A stretch of 64,000 nucleotides of DNA, from positions 1-64,000 of the forward strand of contig JANXCE010000005.1 in assembly GCA_025059715.1 (NCBI GenBank). The letters run 5' to 3'. Positions within the stretch are counted from its first letter, which is position 1. Each line of letters begins with the position of its first letter. Source of the stretch: Caldimicrobium sp. (GTDB taxonomy: Bacteria > Desulfobacterota > Thermodesulfobacteria > Thermodesulfobacteriales > Thermodesulfobacteriaceae). The position numbers were made by a program, and so were the translations under genes. Under the pieces are notes generated by a model. That model was not told the origin of the DNA. It did no database searches and saw only the letters and a list, made by a program, of their open reading frames with translations. Below, piece after piece: positions 4,537 through 14,208 of this stretch.

Positions 4537-5009
4537 AGAATTTCTTTATCTTTCATAACTTTCTCAAGGAGTTCTTGTTCCTCTTCTTTTCTTCTTAGAT
4601 ATAACTCCCAATCCACTTGTTTTTCAAAGAGGGCAACCTCCCTTCTAATCAAATTGAAGGGGAAATCCTCTCTGGATATGTAGGGAAGAGCCGCTTTAAA
4701 GAAGTTTTCTTTGATTTCCTCAAAGATTCTTCCCACTTCTGCTTCGGGAACAAAAGTTCTCTCCTTTCGGTAGCGATAGTAGAATTTCCCCTCAGTTTTT
4801 TCATAAAACTTTTCATAATAAAAACTATTTGAAAAATCATCTCGATCAGGAATTACCTCTATTTGAGCTAAGAAACCTACAAGCCATCTATCTCCCGCTA
4901 ATTTCCTGGAATAATTCCAGATTTCAAGGATTAATCCATTTCTTAAGGGAATTCTTTCGACGCATTTGGCATCCCAAATTATCTCTTCCGAGAGTCTTCG
5001 ATAGGTCAT
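4533..5009 (-). CDS. Hypothetical protein, 158 aa
   Basis: I do not recognise this family. The protein is soluble, has no signal peptide, and is rich in aromatic and charged residues (many Tyr, Phe, Glu, Arg). Its last 40 residues are a charged helix (Y-L-R-R-K-E-E-E-Q-E-L-L-E-K). The frame is intact, starts at ATG 5009, and stands alone on its strand between mtgA and the divergently transcribed pilY1, which supports it being a real gene. Confidence 0.65.
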   Translation of the reverse strand: MTYRRLSEEIIWDAKCVERIPLRNGLILEIWNYSRKLAGDRWLVGFLAQIEVIPDRDDFSNSFYYEKFYEKTEGKFYYRYRKERTFVPEAEVGRIFEEIKENFFKAALPYISREDFPFNLIRREVALFEKQVDWELYLRRKEEEQELLEKVMKDKEIL

Positions 5010-5112: not shown

Positions 5113-8100
5113 ATGAATTTGTTTAAAAGAAGAATTTTCTTTTTTCTTATTTTAGTGATTTTGATTACTTTAAAAAAGGTCCCAAAAGGTGAGTCAAGTA
5201 TGTTTGATTATTGTTATGTGCCTCCTATGACCGGCCAAGTGGTCAAACCTAATGTGCTCTTTGTGATGGATTTTTCAGGTTCGATGCAATTTCCAGCCTA
5301 TGTGCCCTGTAACTTTAATGGTTATTCCCAAAATGTAGCCACTTGTGGCTCTATAAATGTTACTCAGCAAAGTTCTTGGAGATATGATCCTCAAAGAGAT
5401 TATTCAGGTTATTTTGATCCTCAGAAGTGCTATGAGTATACAGGAGGTTATTTTCAGGAGAAAAATTGTAATTGCCCTAATCGCATAGGCACAGCCTCTT
5501 GTATCTCTGGAAATTTACTAAACTGGATAACCACTACTCGTATTGATATCGCAAGATTAGTTCTTACGGGAGGTAAAAGCAGTTCCTCCGGAGGAAATAC
5601 CTTTTTAGATAGTGAGGGAGCTATCTATACTATCGATGAGCCAAGTCTTGGCTGTGCCTTTGTTATTACTGGGACCCAATCTGATTATAGAAGATTGACT
5701 ATTAGAAATCTTGGTTCAGCTCTTTGCCCTCTGGGGAATAATATAATTAACAATGCAAGGCTCAGAATAAGGGCCTCTGATCCCAGTTCTATAAGGGGTA
5801 TAATACATTCTTTTTGTGACACCACTGATTTAAACGGTCAAATAAACGAAAAGTGCCAACTAATAATGGAGTTCATGGTGTTTGCTGGTGATAACAGGTT
5901 TGGTGAAATAAGAGTTGGCAAGACAGCCACAATTTCCTCTCTAATTAGTGCCATAAACAACGAATTGCCCTACGGGGGAACACCTACAGGAGAAGCTCTG
6001 TGGGAAGCTTATGATTTTTATCTACAACATAATCAAAACAATTTTGAGGCAAATTCCGCTTATATTAATCGAAGAAATGGTAATGTGGATCTATATTATG
6101 ATGGCTCGGGAGGTAATGCTACACCTATTCCCTGTAGAAAGGGATTTGTCCTCTTGCTCTCCGATGGAGCCTGGAATGGAGCTGTAGACCCAGTAATACC
6201 TGCAAGAGTTATGGCCACCACAGATTTAAGAGCCGACCTTCCAGGAATTCAAAGAGTCCATACTTATGTTGTCTATGCTTACGGTGATGAAGACCCTGAT
6301 ACCCGTCTACAGGGAAGACAAGCTATGATTACTACTGCTATTTTTGGAGGCTTTGAAGACAGGGATAATAATAGGTTTCCCTATCCCTTTATAAATATAC
6401 AATATCCCTCCGGAAGTGGAACCTGTTCTAACTTAGATGGAACTTTACGAGTAAACATTCAAACTGCTAACACTACTTATTGCAATAGTCGGGGTGTTAG
6501 TTATCCGCTGAGTGTTTGTAATGCTACTGGAGTTTGGCATCAAGGTTGTTCGGAGTGGGATACCGCTCAAGGCAGTCCGAGAGATGGTACACCCCATAAC
6601 TTTTTTGAGGCGAATGATGCCCAGAGTTTAAAGAAATCCCTCTTGGAGGCCCTTTATGACATACTTCGCCGCGCATCTGCGGGAGCAACCGTAGTAACCC
6701 TCTCCCAGGAGGGAAGAACAGGTTCCTTCCTCTTACAGCCCTATTTCTTCCCAAAACTTATTAGTTCCGCAGGGGAGGTGTCGTGGATTGGCTCTCTTCG
6801 TGCTTTTTGGCTTGATGCCAAGGCAAGAATAAGAGAAGATGCCTTAACAAGATATATCCTCGATCTTCTCACCGATTTATGGCTTATTTTTGTTCCCTCT
6901 TCTCCTGAGCCAATGGTCTTTAAGATTACTAATGAAACCACCTGTGAGCATCAGAGATTCGAGGTCTTTGATCCAATTCCTATTTTTGATGTAGGTTGTC
7001 TCTTAGCGGAAAGAGACCCTGATACTCGGTTAATCTTGGCAAATTTTAACGGCACTTTAGCGGAGTTGGCCTCCAACGGGTATCGCCCTTTGTTAACAAC
7101 GCTCTGGAATACCACGGCAAACGCCTTTAGGTTACCTCAAATAAATAGCAATACTGCCTCTTGTATAGTCGATTATTTGTATGGAAAAAACCTAACTAAT
7201 TGTCCAGGAGGAGACAACACTTATATTAACAGATTGAGAACTGTAGATTTGAATAGCCTATGTAGGCTTGTTACTAATACCAGAGTTTGGAAATTAGGGG
7301 ATATCATTTATTCTAATCCTATTGTTGTATCAAATTTATATTATGAGTTAGAGACTTATCATCTGATTCATCATAATGAAACTTACCAAAGTTATACTAA
7401 CAGTTCTATTTATAGACAGCGAAATTCCTATGTAATCGTTGGAGCAAATGATGGTATGATTCATGCTTTTAGGATTGGTTGGTTAAAGTCTCAATCCACA
7501 GAAACCCAACCTTTAAGACTAATAGATGCCTTTAACAGAGAAACTTACGACTTGATTGGTAGAGAAGAGTGGGCCTTCATACCTTATAATGCCCTCCCTT
7601 ATTTGGTTTCTTATGGTAGAGGAGATTGGTGCCACATTTTTACCACAGACTTCAAGATATATGCGTTTGATGCACCTATTGGGGGACGCTGGAGGACGCT
7701 TCTTCTGGGGACGATGGGTTTTGGAGGAAATCCGCTCACCTTGGGTCTCTTAGGTAACTTTAGCTCTTCTATATTCCTCCTTGATTTGACAGATTGGCTT
7801 AATGGAAACTCTGAGAGACCCTCTCTTCTTTGGGAACGAGTTCTTCCCGACAGCACATTAACCTTATCAATACCTTTAGTAATAAAGAGGCATAACAATT
7901 GGCAGATTGTAATTGGAAGTGGGCCACTATCCGTAAGTGGTGGAGGCACTATGACTCGCGTTCAATATCCCGTAACCCCTAAGCTCTTTTTCTTTTCCCT
8001 AAATGGAACTTTACTTCAGGAGGTCCGAATACCGGGTGTTTTAAATCAAGCGGTAGGAGGTTTAAGTGCTATAGACATAAATAGGGACTATAACCATGAT

Positions 8101-8922
8101 TTTCTTTACTTTGGAACTTATAATCATACAAGTGGTCAAATTTATAGAGTTGATTTGAGAGGTTCTTCTCTTCTTATTCAACCAATTAACACTAATCCTC
8201 TCATAAGGGCTCCGGTATTCAGCGCCCCAGCCCTCACTCTTGATAATAATGACCAAGTTTGGGTTATCTTTGGAACCGGAACCTATTTTGGAAACGATCT
8301 GACTTTATCTTTCCCCAACTATTTGGTCGGAATAAAGGATATCTGTGCTACTAATAACACCTGTGGTATGTCTGTATATAACTTAGAGGATAAAACTAAC
8401 TTTTGTAATAATCCTACAAATTATAGTAGTGTCTTACTACAAAATACAACTCAAGCTACCTGTGAGTATGATTCAATTAATGGGACCATAGTAAAAAGGG
8501 ATAGGGGAATTGAGATGGGATATATCTATCCTGAGGTAAATCATGGGTGGTTTCATCAGTTGATGAGGCAAAATGAGCGTATTTTTTCTAATCCCTTAAT
8601 TTTTAGGGAAAGAGTTTTTGCTTTGTCCTTTACTCCTGTGTTAGATGTATGTGCCGTTGGTGGAAATACTTATTATTGGGATGTATGTTATGAGAGTGGA
8701 TGTCCCTGTAGGAGAGTAGGGATGGAAAATCCGGAACCAAGTAGATATTTAGCCCCTGGAGCTCCCCCTTTGGGTAAGGCCTTTCAAGTAGTTAAAACTG
8801 AGGCTGCAGGAGTGTTTATTTTTACTCAAACTTCTGCCTCAGGAGGACCTACCGGAATAGCTATTGAAGCACCCTCTTCACGAAATTTAAAGGGTTATTT
8901 CCTCCTATGGATCGAAAAGTAA
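5113..8922 (+). CDS. pilY1: PilY1-like type IV pilus tip adhesin/biogenesis protein
   Basis: This 1269-residue secreted protein starts with a signal peptide (hydrophobic stretch at about 9-21). A von Willebrand A-like part follows, with metal site D-F-S-G-S-M near residue 54. The C-terminal half has repeated W/G-rich strands of the PilC/PilY1 beta-propeller, including V-G-A-N-D-G-M-I-H-A-F-R. A Ca-binding-like loop D-I-N-R-D-Y-N-H-D sits near residue 986. In known systems PilY1 sits at the pilus tip with the minor pilins, primes assembly and binds surfaces. The protein is rich in Cys, suggesting disulfides outside the cell. It is first in the minor-pilin operon; the next gene starts 16 nt before its stop. 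A TTTACA/TATAAA pair with a long 19-nt spacer (5047-5077) may be the promoter. Confidence 0.9.
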   Translation: MNLFKRRIFFFLILVILITLKKVPKGESSMFDYCYVPPMTGQVVKPNVLFVMDFSGSMQFPAYVPCNFNGYSQNVATCGSINVTQQSSWRYDPQRDYSGYFDPQKCYEYTGGYFQEKNCNCPNRIGTASCISGNLLNWITTTRIDIARLVLTGGKSSSSGGNTFLDSEGAIYTIDEPSLGCAFVITGTQSDYRRLTIRNLGSALCPLGNNIINNARLRIRASDPSSIRGIIHSFCDTTDLNGQINEKCQLIMEFMVFAGDNRFGEIRVGKTATISSLISAINNELPYGGTPTGEALWEAYDFYLQHNQNNFEANSAYINRRNGNVDLYYDGSGGNATPIPCRKGFVLLLSDGAWNGAVDPVIPARVMATTDLRADLPGIQRVHTYVVYAYGDEDPDTRLQGRQAMITTAIFGGFEDRDNNRFPYPFINIQYPSGSGTCSNLDGTLRVNIQTANTTYCNSRGVSYPLSVCNATGVWHQGCSEWDTAQGSPRDGTPHNFFEANDAQSLKKSLLEALYDILRRASAGATVVTLSQEGRTGSFLLQPYFFPKLISSAGEVSWIGSLRAFWLDAKARIREDALTRYILDLLTDLWLIFVPSSPEPMVFKITNETTCEHQRFEVFDPIPIFDVGCLLAERDPDTRLILANFNGTLAELASNGYRPLLTTLWNTTANAFRLPQINSNTASCIVDYLYGKNLTNCPGGDNTYINRLRTVDLNSLCRLVTNTRVWKLGDIIYSNPIVVSNLYYELETYHLIHHNETYQSYTNSSIYRQRNSYVIVGANDGMIHAFRIGWLKSQSTETQPLRLIDAFNRETYDLIGREEWAFIPYNALPYLVSYGRGDWCHIFTTDFKIYAFDAPIGGRWRTLLLGTMGFGGNPLTLGLLGNFSSSIFLLDLTDWLNGNSERPSLLWERVLPDSTLTLSIPLVIKRHNNWQIVIGSGPLSVSGGGTMTRVQYPVTPKLFFFSLNGTLLQEVRIPGVLNQAVGGLSAIDINRDYNHDFLYFGTYNHTSGQIYRVDLRGSSLLIQPINTNPLIRAPVFSAPALTLDNNDQVWVIFGTGTYFGNDLTLSFPNYLVGIKDICATNNTCGMSVYNLEDKTNFCNNPTNYSSVLLQNTTQATCEYDSINGTIVKRDRGIEMGYIYPEVNHGWFHQLMRQNERIFSNPLIFRERVFALSFTPVLDVCAVGGNTYYWDVCYESGCPCRRVGMENPEPSRYLAPGAPPLGKAFQVVKTEAAGVFIFTQTSASGGPTGIAIEAPSSRNLKGYFLLWIEK

Positions 8923-9464
8923 GAGCATACACTCTCTTAGAATTGGTTACAATAATGCTTATTGGAATTTTAATAAGTTATTTGGCAGTTAACGAGATTA
9001 TCAATCATATTCAGGAAGCTCGTCTGAGAGAGGCTCATAACCAGTTACTGAGCGATTTGAATTATATAAAAAATCAGGCCTTAGTAACAGGACTTCCCTG
9101 GGGTTTGCGAGCCTGTGCTGGAGGAAGAGAGTATAAGATATTTATAGACCATGATTCAAATTGCAAAGATACCAGTGTTTCTTGTTCAGATTATGAGACC
9201 ACTAAGATATGTTTAAACATCTTAAATAAGGTTTGTTACAGTGATCAGGACTGTCTGAGTCAACAGGGTGCCTGTGTTCCGAGAAGTCTATATAATAAGT
9301 TGCCCCCAGGAATTACCTTTACTAACTCAAGTTATGTAGTTTTTAATAAATTAGGTTATGCCTTTAATTATCTATGTGGAAACGGTGAGGGAAGCTTTAT
9401 TCTCCAAAATACTAATAGAAAATTTATTACTATTAACATTAGTCGCACTGGAAGAATTAGGTGA
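8907..9464 (+). CDS. GspH/FimT-type minor pilin
   Basis: The protein has 185 residues. A short basic leader is followed by the prepilin core A-Y-T-L-L-E-L and a ~20-residue hydrophobic helix, as in class III signal peptides cut by PilD. The residue before the expected cut is Ala instead of the usual Gly; the conserved Glu at +5 is present. The globular part is GspH/FimT-like in length and has about nine Cys, many in a cluster near residues 85-125. It overlaps pilY1 by 16 nt and the next gene by 4 nt (GTGA), so the operon is translationally coupled. It probably belongs to the tip priming complex. Confidence 0.85.
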   Translation: MDRKVRAYTLLELVTIMLIGILISYLAVNEIINHIQEARLREAHNQLLSDLNYIKNQALVTGLPWGLRACAGGREYKIFIDHDSNCKDTSVSCSDYETTKICLNILNKVCYSDQDCLSQQGACVPRSLYNKLPPGITFTNSSYVVFNKLGYAFNYLCGNGEGSFILQNTNRKFITINISRTGRIR

Positions 9465-10006
9465 AATCAAAAAGGGAGGAAGGATATAATCTTATTGAAT
9501 TAGCTATAGCTTTAAGTATCATAATTATAATCTCTATAGGATTAGCCAGAAGTATTTATGAGCTTATTAGAGCCCAAAAGAGAACTCAACTTTTTAACAC
9601 AGCACGAATAATAACAGAAAGGTTAAGAAGTGAACTAAATGCCAAACCATATTCCTATTTTCAAAGTATAAACACAAATGACTTATATATGAATAATGCA
9701 ACCTGTGATTTACATGGAAACTGTTCCTTTGATATTGATAATTGCTACTTAGAAAGTAGATTTAGTTCGCGCAGAGGATGTTTACCAACTTTTCATTGCA
9801 CCTTTTGTTTTCATAACAGTAAACTTATCAGCACCAACAATGTAACTTGTTTCCATGGTTACCAATTTGATGTGGGGTTTAATATAGTTAGAATTGTAAG
9901 TGATTTAGGAGAGGTAGGTTATGGAGTATGTTTAAGGGTCTCCTTTAAAGAGCCTGGCTCCGAAAATATCCTGGACTATAGAGTGACGGTTGTGATTGGC
10001 TTTTAA
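9461..10006 (+). CDS. pilV: Minor pilin, PilV-like
   Basis: This 181-residue protein starts at GTG 9461 inside the preceding stop. The prepilin leader is short (K-S-K-R-E-E-G) and the cut site is G|Y-N-L-I-E-L with Glu at +5, followed by a hydrophobic helix. The C-terminal domain has about eight Cys. PilV-like proteins form the tip subcomplex with PilW, PilX and PilY1; the exact name is based on order and leader type, not on a search. Confidence 0.75.
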   Translation: MKSKREEGYNLIELAIALSIIIIISIGLARSIYELIRAQKRTQLFNTARIITERLRSELNAKPYSYFQSINTNDLYMNNATCDLHGNCSFDIDNCYLESRFSSRRGCLPTFHCTFCFHNSKLISTNNVTCFHGYQFDVGFNIVRIVSDLGEVGYGVCLRVSFKEPGSENILDYRVTVVIGF

Positions 10007-10022
10007 ACTGGGCTTCTTAGTA

Positions 10023-10982
10023 ATGTTAACTCGTAGAAGAGATAAAGTGAATTCAAGGATAAAGCTTAGTTATTTCTTACAGAAAGGTTATTCCATTTTA
10101 GAGTTATTAGTAGTTGTGTTTATAAGTCTTGTCCTATTCTCAGGTCTTTTTTCCTTATACTACAATCTTTTTAAGACGGAAAGAGAAAGTAGAATTGCCT
10201 TTAAGACTGAGCTTGACCTCCAGTCTCTACAGACCCAACTTCACAAAATTTTTACCGCTATTGGTTTTGGAATCCCCTTGAATTTTTTTAATACTCATAA
10301 TAGTTATTGTGCGGAAAATTATGTGCTCTCTAAAAATGAAACTCATCTGTGTTTTCTCTCGGTAGCACTGAGGCAAGCAGAATATAATGGATGTTGGTGG
10401 ATTTGTGAAGGGAATAATAGTTTAAGCTCTAAGGTTAGTTCTAAAACTTGGCTGGGTGGAAATTGTGAACTAAATTATAATCACCTTTTTCTCAGAATGA
10501 ACTCCCAGAGGAGTAACTACCAAGTTTTGAGAAATGTCCATCCTTGTAATAACGCAAATAACGGAGATATGGTTTTCTTTTTACATAAGAGTAGTATGAA
10601 TTTTCCAAGGGATTTTTGGATTAGGTTGGGGTTAAGTGTTACCAATGTGACACACTGTGCTCCAGGAACTAAAGACCTGGAGTTAAGGATAGGCAACGAC
10701 CCTCCTCAACCTTTGATCTCTTGTGTAGGAGACCTTAGAGTGCAGTTTATCACTAAGGAAGGAAATCTTGTGGATAGTATTCCCTCACTTGATTCTATAC
10801 ATGCTATTAGATATTGTCTTTTAATCCAGGTGAGTCCGCGATTGCAAGTCTCTGAGGAGTTACCCTCCTATTCTGAGAGATGTGGAGGTGTCTTTTTTGA
10901 CAATGCAATGTGGAAGTATTATAGATGGAGAGTCTTAGAGGAGGAAATAGTGTTATATAATCTCGTAGGTAGTTTATATTAG
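10023..10982 (+). CDS. pilW: Minor pilin, PilW-like
   Basis: The prepilin motif G|Y-S-I-L-E-L is followed by a hydrophobic helix and a large globular domain, as in PilW (319 residues here). A basic leader of ~22 residues precedes the cut if the ATG at 10023 is used; the frame is open further up to TTG 9996, but that would give an unusually long leader, so ATG is preferred. The mature domain contains about ten Cys. It sits directly before the PilX-like gene (stop and ATG adjoin). Confidence 0.77.
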   Translation: MLTRRRDKVNSRIKLSYFLQKGYSILELLVVVFISLVLFSGLFSLYYNLFKTERESRIAFKTELDLQSLQTQLHKIFTAIGFGIPLNFFNTHNSYCAENYVLSKNETHLCFLSVALRQAEYNGCWWICEGNNSLSSKVSSKTWLGGNCELNYNHLFLRMNSQRSNYQVLRNVHPCNNANNGDMVFFLHKSSMNFPRDFWIRLGLSVTNVTHCAPGTKDLELRIGNDPPQPLISCVGDLRVQFITKEGNLVDSIPSLDSIHAIRYCLLIQVSPRLQVSEELPSYSERCGGVFFDNAMWKYYRWRVLEEEIVLYNLVGSLY

Positions 10983-11417
10983 ATGAGGGGCCTATTGTTA
11001 AATTATAAGAAAAAGACCAGGGGTAGTGTGCTTTTTGTTGCCATTGTGTTTTCCCTTATGGGATTAATTCTTATAGCGGGATTGTTTATGGCCTATCAAA
11101 GGACTTTTAGGGTTATTTTTCCAATTAAAACTTATACCACAGTGAGAGAGGCGGTAAGTGGCACAACCCTTCTTTTGGCAAGTTATATCGATAATAGATA
11201 TTTTGAAGATCTAATCCTTGGCCAATGTAGGAATGGCTCAATAAAATATAGATTAACGGGGGTAACTAATTTTTTTGAGGCGCACTGGAAGGTATGTTTA
11301 GTTTCTGCCAATTTACAGCAGAATCCACGAATATATATTTACAGCTTAACCACTAATAGTTCGGGACCGAGAGGGGTCTTTTCCTCAATAGAGGCACTCT
11401 ACCGATTAGAGAGATAA
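10983..11417 (+). CDS. pilX: Minor pilin, PilX-like
   Basis: The 144-residue protein has the PilX type of N terminus: a basic leader, then G-S-V-L-F-V-A-I-V and a long hydrophobic helix, without the Glu5 that other pilins keep. That loss is normal for PilX proteins, which have only a short globular part, as here. It ends the pilY1-fimT-pilV-pilW-pilX operon; the next gene begins 12 nt later, so the transcript may continue. Confidence 0.75.
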   Translation: MRGLLLNYKKKTRGSVLFVAIVFSLMGLILIAGLFMAYQRTFRVIFPIKTYTTVREAVSGTTLLLASYIDNRYFEDLILGQCRNGSIKYRLTGVTNFFEAHWKVCLVSANLQQNPRIYIYSLTTNSSGPRGVFSSIEALYRLER

Positions 11418-11429
11418 TAGAGAGGATTT

Positions 11430-12530
11430 ATGTTCTTAGAGCTTCTGCACTCTCTCTCTCCCTTAACCTTTGAAAGATACATGGAACTTGCCTTGTATCA
11501 TCCCGATTATGGATATTATGCGCGGGGTAATGTGCCTGGCAAAAAGGGGGATTACATAACTTCTCCATGTATTCACAAAGCCTTTGGGGCAACCCTTGCT
11601 TTGCAAGCGATAGAGATTTTTGAACTATTAGGGAGGCCTAAAAATTTTGTTATATTGGAAATGGGAGCGGGAGCAGGTTATTTAGCTTTTGATTTACTGA
11701 GCTATCTCCGTTCCTATGGGCTATCATTTCCTTACTATATTGTTGAACCTTTCTTACCTCTTAAGGTCCTTCAAGAGGAGACTCTCTTACCCTTCAAAAA
11801 TCAAATAATCTGGGTTAAAAACTTAGAGGAACTTCCCCCCTTTGAGGGCCTTTTTATAGCTAACGAACTCTTTGATTCTCTACCAGTGCATCTTGTAGAG
11901 AGACATGAGGGAGATTTATGGGAGGTTTGGGTAGAATTCAACGGAGAAGAAGTGAGAGAATTTCTTGGTGAACTAAGTGAAGTTGAGGTGCTCTCTCGGG
12001 TATATCCCTATTTTGTAAGTTGGGAAGAGGGTTATAGAACGGAGGTATGCACTAAAGGGGAAGAAATCTACAAAATTTTAGCCCAAAAATTCTTGAAGGG
12101 GTTAATATTAATCATTGACTATGGTTATCCCAGAGATGACCTCTATCACCCCCAAAGAAAGAGGGGCACATTGCTCTGTTACTATCGTCATAGAATAGTT
12201 AAAAATCCCTATTTTAAGCCAGGCCATATTGACATAACTGCCCATGTGGACTTTACTTACCTAAAGGAATTAGGGGAAAGATATGGATTTATAAATTTAG
12301 GTTTTACCCAACAGGGAAGTTATCTTACCTCCTTAGGAATCGATAAGGTGTTTCAAGAGGTAGCTGAAGGAAGTATTAAAGATAAGGAAGCCTTAAAGAT
12401 GTTATTATTACCAGAAGGTTTAGGTCAGACCCACTGGGTATTAGCCCAGGGTAGATTCTACGGCTCTTCCTCTATTCCGAAGCTCAAAGGTTTTACCTTT
12501 AGCAATCGTTTGAGATTACTCCAGAGATGA
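11430..12530 (+). CDS. SAM-dependent methyltransferase, MidA/NDUFAF7 family (COG1565)
   Basis: The protein has 366 residues. The N-terminal F-E-R-Y-M-E-L-A-L-Y-H-P-D-Y-G-Y-Y is the hallmark of this family. The SAM loop appears as I-L-E-M-G-A-G-A-G-Y-L near residue 75, and F-I-A-N-E-L-F-D-S-L-P-V follows. In mitochondria the homologue methylates an Arg of complex I; bacterial targets are mostly unknown. The start ATG has AGAGG upstream. Its TGA overlaps the ATG of the next gene (ATGA). Confidence 0.88.
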   Translation: MFLELLHSLSPLTFERYMELALYHPDYGYYARGNVPGKKGDYITSPCIHKAFGATLALQAIEIFELLGRPKNFVILEMGAGAGYLAFDLLSYLRSYGLSFPYYIVEPFLPLKVLQEETLLPFKNQIIWVKNLEELPPFEGLFIANELFDSLPVHLVERHEGDLWEVWVEFNGEEVREFLGELSEVEVLSRVYPYFVSWEEGYRTEVCTKGEEIYKILAQKFLKGLILIIDYGYPRDDLYHPQRKRGTLLCYYRHRIVKNPYFKPGHIDITAHVDFTYLKELGERYGFINLGFTQQGSYLTSLGIDKVFQEVAEGSIKDKEALKMLLLPEGLGQTHWVLAQGRFYGSSSIPKLKGFTFSNRLRLLQR

Positions 12531-13657
12531 GTCCCTACCTTAAACTTGAAGAGCTTGGAAAAAGGATTGAATATACCTTTTTAAAACACATATTTGAAAG
12601 AAAAGATTGGGAGCTCTTTCTTGAAAGGGCAAAGACTTATCCCTTTAGAAGTATATGTGTGCCTCCACACTTAATCAAGGAGGCAAAAAGGGTTTTTCCT
12701 AAAAAGGTGGTTTCGGTGGCAGGTTTTCCTCTGGGGTTTCAACTGCTTGAGACTAAACTAAAGGAGATAGAGGATCTTTTCAAAGAGAGTGCAGAGGAAG
12801 TTGACTTTGTTATCAATCTCTCTTTTGTTAAGGCACGAAATAAAGAGGCCCTCTTAAGGGAATTGGAGTTAGTAAGAAAAATCTCAAAGGATAAAGTCAT
12901 AAAGGCTATTATTGAAACACCCTGGCTTAGGCCAGAGGAAATAGAGTTTGTGATTTCCCTACTTATGGCAACTGGAATAGACTATGTTAAGACCTCAACG
13001 GGTTTTTGGGGAAAGGCAACTACCTTGGAAGAAATAATCTTTTTGAAGAAATTATCTCAGGGAAGGATTAAAATAAAGGCTTCAGGGGGAATAAGGGATT
13101 TGGATACCGCATTAGCTTTTTTAGATGCAGGAGCGGATCTTATTGGCACCAGTAGTGGCTATGAAATTTTAAGGGAGTTGGAGACTAAAAGTGGAGAATT
13201 CCCAAGCCCTAAGGATGAAGTTGTTGATATTTATGTGGATGGCTGTTCCTTAGGGAATCCAGGACCAGGGGGTTATGGAATTATTATAAAAGATGGAAAT
13301 TCGGAGATAGTATTGTCTGGAGGAGAACCCTATACTACCAATAATCGTATGGAACTTTTGGCGGTTATCAAAGCTCTGGCCTATTTTAAAGAGCCAAAGA
13401 AAATCCGTATTCATAGCGATTCTGAGTATGTAATTAAGGGGGCCACAGAATGGCTACCAATTTGGGTGAAAAGGGGCTTTAAGGGTGCAAATGGTAAGAC
13501 CATTAAAAATGAAGACCTTTGGAGGGAATTAGCTCGTTGGCTTAAAATTCACCAAGTAATCTTTTCTAAGGTCTTAGCCCATGCAGGACACCCTGAGAAT
13601 GAAAGGGTTGACAGAATAGCTAAAGGAGAGGCCAAAAAGTGGAGGAAAAACTCTTAA
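12527..13657 (+). CDS. Fusion of deoxyribose-phosphate aldolase (DeoC) and ribonuclease HI
   Basis: One uninterrupted 376-residue frame holds two enzymes. Residues ~1-205 are a DeoC TIM barrel: V-D-F-V-I-N, I-I-E-T, the Schiff-base Lys in V-K-T-S-T-G-F and the relay Lys in I-K-A-S-G-G-I-R are all present. After a ~15-residue linker, residues ~222-370 are RNase HI: Y-V-D-G-C-S-L-G-N-P-G-P-G-G, N-N-R-M-E-L, H-S-D-S-E-Y-V and N-E-R-V-D supply the four acidic residues. Both active sites look intact. DeoC splits deoxyribose-5-phosphate; RNase HI cuts RNA in RNA-DNA hybrids. The two are normally separate genes. Coupled to neighbours on both sides by overlap. Confidence 0.92.
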   Translation: MSPYLKLEELGKRIEYTFLKHIFERKDWELFLERAKTYPFRSICVPPHLIKEAKRVFPKKVVSVAGFPLGFQLLETKLKEIEDLFKESAEEVDFVINLSFVKARNKEALLRELELVRKISKDKVIKAIIETPWLRPEEIEFVISLLMATGIDYVKTSTGFWGKATTLEEIIFLKKLSQGRIKIKASGGIRDLDTALAFLDAGADLIGTSSGYEILRELETKSGEFPSPKDEVVDIYVDGCSLGNPGPGGYGIIIKDGNSEIVLSGGEPYTTNNRMELLAVIKALAYFKEPKKIRIHSDSEYVIKGATEWLPIWVKRGFKGANGKTIKNEDLWRELARWLKIHQVIFSKVLAHAGHPENERVDRIAKGEAKKWRKNS

Positions 13658-14208
13658 TAGGAATTACTGGTGCAAGTGGAGCGGTATATGCTTGGAAGTT
13701 ATTAAAGATTTTGAAAGAGATTCCTGTTCGGGTTGAGGTTATAATAACCGAGGCAGGAAAACTGGTCTTTAAGCACGAATTGGAGAAGGACTGGATGGAA
13801 CTACATTCTCTTGCGGAGAGAGTGTATGAGGAGAGGGAGATTTCTGCACCTCCTGCAAGTGGATCTGCTCCTTATTGGGGTATGATAATAATTCCCTGTA
13901 GTATGGGGACCTTAGGAGGTCTTGCCTCTGGGCAAACGAGAAATCTTTTACTTAGAGCAGGTGATGTAGTTCTGAAGGAAAGAAAACCCCTGGTGCTCGT
14001 AGTTAGAGAGACACCCTTGAATCTTATCCATCTTCAAAACATGGTAACTCTTACTCTGGCGGGAGCAATAATTTTTCCTGCTATGCCAGGCTTTTACTCT
14101 AAGCCCAAGGATCTGGAAGGGCTCATAGAAAGCTTTGTTACAAGACTTCTTAGCTTTTTAAAACTTAAAGATTATACTCACCAATGGCAAGGCTTAGAGG
14201 ATGATTAA
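13639..14208 (+). CDS. ubiX: Flavin prenyltransferase UbiX
   Basis: The 189-residue protein makes prenylated FMN for UbiD-type decarboxylases. Motifs seen are G-I-T-G-A-S-G-A at the N terminus, the active-site S-M-G-T-L-G-G-L-A-S-G, and R-E-T-P-L-N-L-I-H-L-Q-N-M near residue 130. The GTG start at 13639 lies 19 nt inside the fusion gene upstream and has GGAG about 10 nt before it. No ubiD is in the window, so the client enzyme is elsewhere. Confidence 0.93.
   Translation: MEEKLLIGITGASGAVYAWKLLKILKEIPVRVEVIITEAGKLVFKHELEKDWMELHSLAERVYEEREISAPPASGSAPYWGMIIIPCSMGTLGGLASGQTRNLLLRAGDVVLKERKPLVLVVRETPLNLIHLQNMVTLTLAGAIIFPAMPGFYSKPKDLEGLIESFVTRLLSFLKLKDYTHQWQGLEDD

Follow-up and report, generated by a model that had tools for sequence, protein, structure and literature searches.

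A single open reading frame in Caldimicrobium sp. joins a deoxyribose-phosphate aldolase (DeoC) to an RNase HI. The best explanation, to which we assign a probability of about 0.7, is that this gene would produce two independent enzymes on one chain, through a single joining of neighboring operon genes that was then kept by co-expression or drift. As part of that explanation, the product would be one polypeptide with two complete, separately folded predicted enzymes. The DeoC-RNase HI pairing runs through most of an order, and the relatives provide a natural experiment in which one locus is found fused, with DeoC eroded, with DeoC cleanly removed, or with both halves gone. These four states make the functional link of an odd two-enzyme fusion testable from sequence, and the answer obtained in this way leans to no.

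The fusion gene and its operon neighbors

The gene lies at 12527–13657 on the forward strand of the window (the whole 64,000-nucleotide stretch analyzed) and encodes 376 aa in an open frame from ATG to TAA. Its DeoC domain (12560–13168, forward strand; residues 12–214) matched TIGR00126 at 155.2 bits, against an equivalog cut-off of 117.3, over positions 4–209 of the 211 in the model. A linker of 17 residues (13169–13219, forward strand; residues 215–231) leads into the RNase HI domain (13220–13648, forward strand; residues 232–374), which matched NF001236/PRK00203 at 173.2 bits (equivalog cut-off, 160; model positions 4–146 of 151). Pfam and NCBIfam calls concurred on these two domains, and the nearest solved structures by sequence were 1mzh for DeoC and variants of Escherichia coli RNase HI. 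An AlphaFold model built from the single sequence had a mean pLDDT of 47 and was too poor for use.

The DeoC catalytic residues are D93, K155 (the Schiff-base lysine), and K184, corresponding to E. coli D102, K167, and K201, while the RNase HI half has all of its metal ligands, D238, E276, D298, and D362, along with the active-site H352. The first-pass annotation had described one unbroken frame holding a full DeoC and then a full RNase HI, with both catalytic sets visible. Both statements hold, as each half exceeds its equivalog cut-off and every one of these residues is conserved without exception in the 24 fused homologues. Residues 200–225, where a frameshift or stop had been raised as a possible refutation, contain neither, and no internal stop was present in any of the 24 fused genomes.

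The fusion gene overlaps an upstream gene for a SAM-dependent methyltransferase (PF02636, here called MidA; 11430–12530, forward strand) by 4 nt and a downstream gene for the flavin prenyltransferase UbiX (13639–14208, forward strand) by 19 nt, and it therefore sits in a tight operon. Because of the 4-nt overlap, translation of MidA and the fusion gene is probably coupled. The association with ubiX extends to every genome with this RNase HI, fused or stand-alone, as ubiX is the next gene in 35 of 35. Directly upstream of the operon, a cluster at 5113–11417 of the window encodes a large PilY1-like protein together with four pilin-like products, one of which has weak GspH matches; the remaining names were assigned by eye.

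Distribution and loss of the DeoC half

We surveyed 41 genomes from three families of one order, the only order in the class as sampled; the hosts are heat-loving sulfur bacteria. A full-length, stop-free fusion was present in 24 of the 41, spanning two families and eight genera, with 43–63% identity to the window protein. Loss of the fused form from all close relatives, which the first-pass annotation had named as a possible refutation, is not what is seen: within the window genus, two other members carry the fusion and three are without the DeoC half. A named carrier, Thermodesulfobacterium geofontis ZAV-08 (L016), belongs to the same family as the window genome, and its locus was the only one returned by a broad genome scan with the fusion protein, a scan that finds close relatives only. 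Eleven genomes had the RNase HI half only, one (G025, of the third family) had a stand-alone DeoC, and five had no match, four of these being 64–81% complete. G019, a complete genome with no match, was considered as a case of loss and rejected, since UbiX lies at a contig end.

Because the window derives from a draft in 80 contigs, one might suspect that the assembly or the frame is wrong in this one genome. The probability of such an error is negligible, because the same open fusion is found in 24 genomes of the order, closed genomes included (single-contig assemblies G010, G015, and G027), and the catalytic residues are invariant in both halves. In 395 genomes sampled from the phylum, no fusion was detected outside the order, in any of the other classes, nor did any record from plasmids, phages, or viral contigs cover both halves. 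Long open frames at other RNase HI matches in the phylum were considered as DeoC fusions and rejected; most are GC-rich read-through, and two kinds are different fusions. These sequence comparisons show the fusion to be real, old, and vertically inherited in the order.

All 11 stand-alone RNase HI genes occupy the same place before UbiX, in genomes with no DeoC match anywhere. In the RNase HI tree, the order's copies, whether fused or stand-alone, form one clade (96/91), with the stand-alone copies nested within the fused ones, which indicates that they descend from the fusion. On the rpoB tree, from which G005, G032, G034, and G035 were omitted as their assemblies have no full rpoB, the fused and stand-alone states require at least three changes, or about seven losses if the fusion had a single origin.

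Four states of the locus could be distinguished. The window, G003, G015, and G021 have MidA, the DeoC-RNase HI fusion, and UbiX in that order. The closed genome G001 has an eroded DeoC between MidA and RNase HI, followed by UbiX. In G017 and G024, nothing separates MidA from RNase HI ahead of UbiX, and in G017, the RNase HI start comes directly after the MidA stop. Lastly, both halves are missing from G415 (L101, 5388–7108), where MidA and UbiX are about 75 nt apart on one contig; this genome is 70% complete, and a second RNase HI elsewhere in it is possible.

The gap between MidA and RNase HI in G001 is collinear with DeoC, as can be followed in a central stretch (ELAYLPNLIYLKS versus ELDYVPNIIHIKS), around the Schiff-base lysine (ITTSMDFVK versus IDTGIDFVK), and in the DeoC tail (YEILSEME versus YEILRELE). 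Compared against the G005 DeoC, the gap scored 62 as protein (shuffle maximum, 51; 0/500) and 37 as DNA (shuffle maximum, 33; 0/500), though by protein score, the remnant is significant against only one of three reference DeoCs and is weaker against those of G000 and G003. Two further loci merit mention. At a contig end in G006 (L039), a stand-alone RNase HI frame stays open to the end of the contig, with about 29 upstream residues unlike the DeoC tail, and another N-terminal partner may exist there. The G021 genome encodes, in addition to the fusion, another RNase HI-like protein near 5000–5500 of L027 that is divergent (38% identity).

Probable independence of the two halves

Across the 24 fusions, mean pairwise identity was 51% for DeoC, 63% for RNase HI, and 26% for the linker (16 columns). 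In five close pairs, dN was well below dS in both domains, with dN/dS of about 0.05–0.28 for DeoC and 0.02–0.07 for RNase HI; the looser DeoC values belong to the Thermodesulfobacterium group, which also has DeoC losses. Both domains are, on these estimates, under purifying selection, and the linker is variable. In 7 of the 24 fusions, the stretch from the DeoC GTS motif to the first aspartate of RNase HI contains no ATG, GTG, or TTG, so a single chain is the only expected product in those seven. No conserved internal start codon was found in the linker region across the 24, and internal starts for separate RNase HI synthesis, a candidate we considered, were rejected as a general feature.

Taken together as a proposed history, neighboring deoC and rnhA would have become one frame, once, in an ancestor shared by two of the three families in the order. 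The resulting chain, with DeoC at the N-terminus and RNase HI at the C-terminus and both presumed to be working enzymes, would have been maintained through co-expression or by drift, and neither half would hand a metabolite to the other. It would have been passed on vertically and then broken repeatedly by in-place loss of DeoC, with RNase HI kept. The two halves most likely act independently of each other, since RNase HI has been retained in several relatives that have lost the aldolase half. Of the two possibilities offered in the first-pass annotation, a neutral fusion maintained through co-expression fits best with purifying selection on both domains, a variable linker, and halves that are separable in evolution. 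Two observations count against independence. The fusion has outlived deep divergence (24 genomes at the identities given above), which could mean some benefit, and every DeoC that remains in the two fused families is part of a fusion, with no fission into two genes seen there.

Pathway context bears on the other possibility offered, that the fusion couples hybrid removal to deoxynucleotide salvage. DeoC splits or makes deoxyribose 5-phosphate, interconverting it with glyceraldehyde 3-phosphate and acetaldehyde, whereas RNase HI cleaves RNA that is hybridized to DNA. Because RNase HI releases RNA pieces and no deoxyribose 5-phosphate, established chemistry gives the two enzymes no common intermediate, in agreement with the earlier remark that they have no obvious common pathway. 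The usual routes to the DeoC substrate are a DeoA-type phosphorylase, DeoB, and Rcl. Over their family cut-offs, the DeoA-type pyrimidine nucleoside phosphorylase, the DeoB phosphopentomutase, and the Rcl-type deoxyribosidase were each found in 0 of 41 genomes, though a phosphopentomutase other than DeoB may be present. As all 41 genomes encode PF01048 phosphorylase-family proteins, a purine route to deoxyribose 1-phosphate with an unrecognised mutase is possible. RNase HII was found in 40 of 41 genomes, and RNase HI is therefore not the sole RNase H.

Under such coupling, DeoC would use up deoxyribose phosphate from nucleic-acid turnover where RNase HI acts. Both enzymes do deal with nucleic-acid components, and the PF01048 proteins could allow some deoxyribose 1-phosphate to form. 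We nevertheless consider coupling very improbable, and this part of the first-pass annotation was not supported: there is no deoxyribose 5-phosphate in what RNase HI releases, the three usual supply enzymes were absent over cut-off, and at least 11 genomes lost DeoC while RNase HI stayed.

The most interesting alternative to independent enzymes is a platform role for an oligomeric DeoC. Since DERA enzymes assemble as dimers or tetramers, several RNase HI domains would be brought together by the fusion, which could raise stability or hybrid binding at high temperature. The position of RNase HI at the DeoC C-terminus and the conservation of the fusion over two families are consistent with this arrangement, as is the oligomeric nature of the DERA family, but a scaffold would not need the DeoC catalytic residues that are kept in 24 of 24 fusions, and DeoC has been lost repeatedly, within the same genera, with RNase HI kept. 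We regard the platform as unlikely. Still less credence goes to a fusion that is functional as a unit, in which an active oligomeric DeoC gathers RNase HI domains and ties hybrid removal to the level of deoxyribose phosphate or acetaldehyde, the link being lost only in RNase HII-reliant lineages. With two independent enzymes on one chain as the preferred reading, this family calls for caution when "Rosetta stone" reasoning is applied to fusions. Its combination of a thermostable DERA and an RNase HI in one chain could also serve protein engineering as a scaffold.

Comparison with known fusions

DeoC-RNase HI is apparently a domain pairing not described before, and we found no earlier description in the open-access literature; it is of an already known kind, in which RNase HI is joined to an unrelated enzyme. 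Like other DeoC/DERA proteins (TIGR00126), the DeoC half is full-length with the catalytic aspartate and two lysines and is nearest to 1mzh, but it differs in its C-terminal RNase HI and in an order with no DeoA or DeoB partner genes. The RNase HI half is likewise full-length, with the D-E-D-D set and active-site histidine of bacterial rnhA products (NF001236). Whereas those occur stand-alone or with a hybrid-binding domain, here the N-terminal addition is DeoC. Where RNase HI has an N-terminal dsRNA/hybrid-binding domain, the extension binds substrate (PMC1950709). Both types have an N-terminal extension, but in the fusion it is a separate predicted enzyme, and its N-terminal half matched no hybrid-binding family in domain profile searches.

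Fusion of RNase HI to other domains seems to occur readily in the phylum. Two genomes of one family in the same phylum as the window, G312 (L125, 983–2503) and G097 (L126), have a Pol I-type 5′-3′ exonuclease fused to RNase HI in a 506-residue frame (PF02739, 6e-46; PF01367, 9e-31; PF00075, 6e-37). A functional fusion is more plausible here than for DeoC-RNase HI, because both activities fit one job, RNA primer removal. In G370 (L048, frame around 1501–1950), RNase HI is followed in one frame by a flavin-reductase-like domain (PF01613, 4.8e-37).

The closest parallel is the RNase HI-CobC (acid phosphatase) fusion of Actinomycetales, represented by MSMEG_4305, Rv2228c, and SCO2299 (PMC7466739; PMC1950709). 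The fusion protein described here is not a member of that family: NF005567, the model for bifunctional RNase H/acid phosphatase, scored 23.8 against a cut-off of 326, through the RNase H part only, and a family profile search found no CobC/phosphatase domain. In Mycolicibacterium smegmatis, the two domains of RNase HI-CobC are functionally dissociated in vivo; RNase HI function hardly changed when the partner domain was taken off, and drift was put forward as the explanation (PMC7466739). Both systems pair RNase HI with an unrelated metabolic enzyme, are limited to one bacterial order, and have purifying selection on both domains, slower evolution of RNase HI, and a highly variable linker. Functional interdependence is not needed in RNase HI-CobC and is probably not needed in DeoC-RNase HI. 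They differ in that RNase HI is N-terminal to CobC in Actinomycetales and C-terminal to DeoC here, and in that the linker is about 17 residues here and 24–162 in RNase HI-CobC. Unlike RNase HI-CobC, the DeoC-RNase HI locus makes in-place loss of the partner visible.
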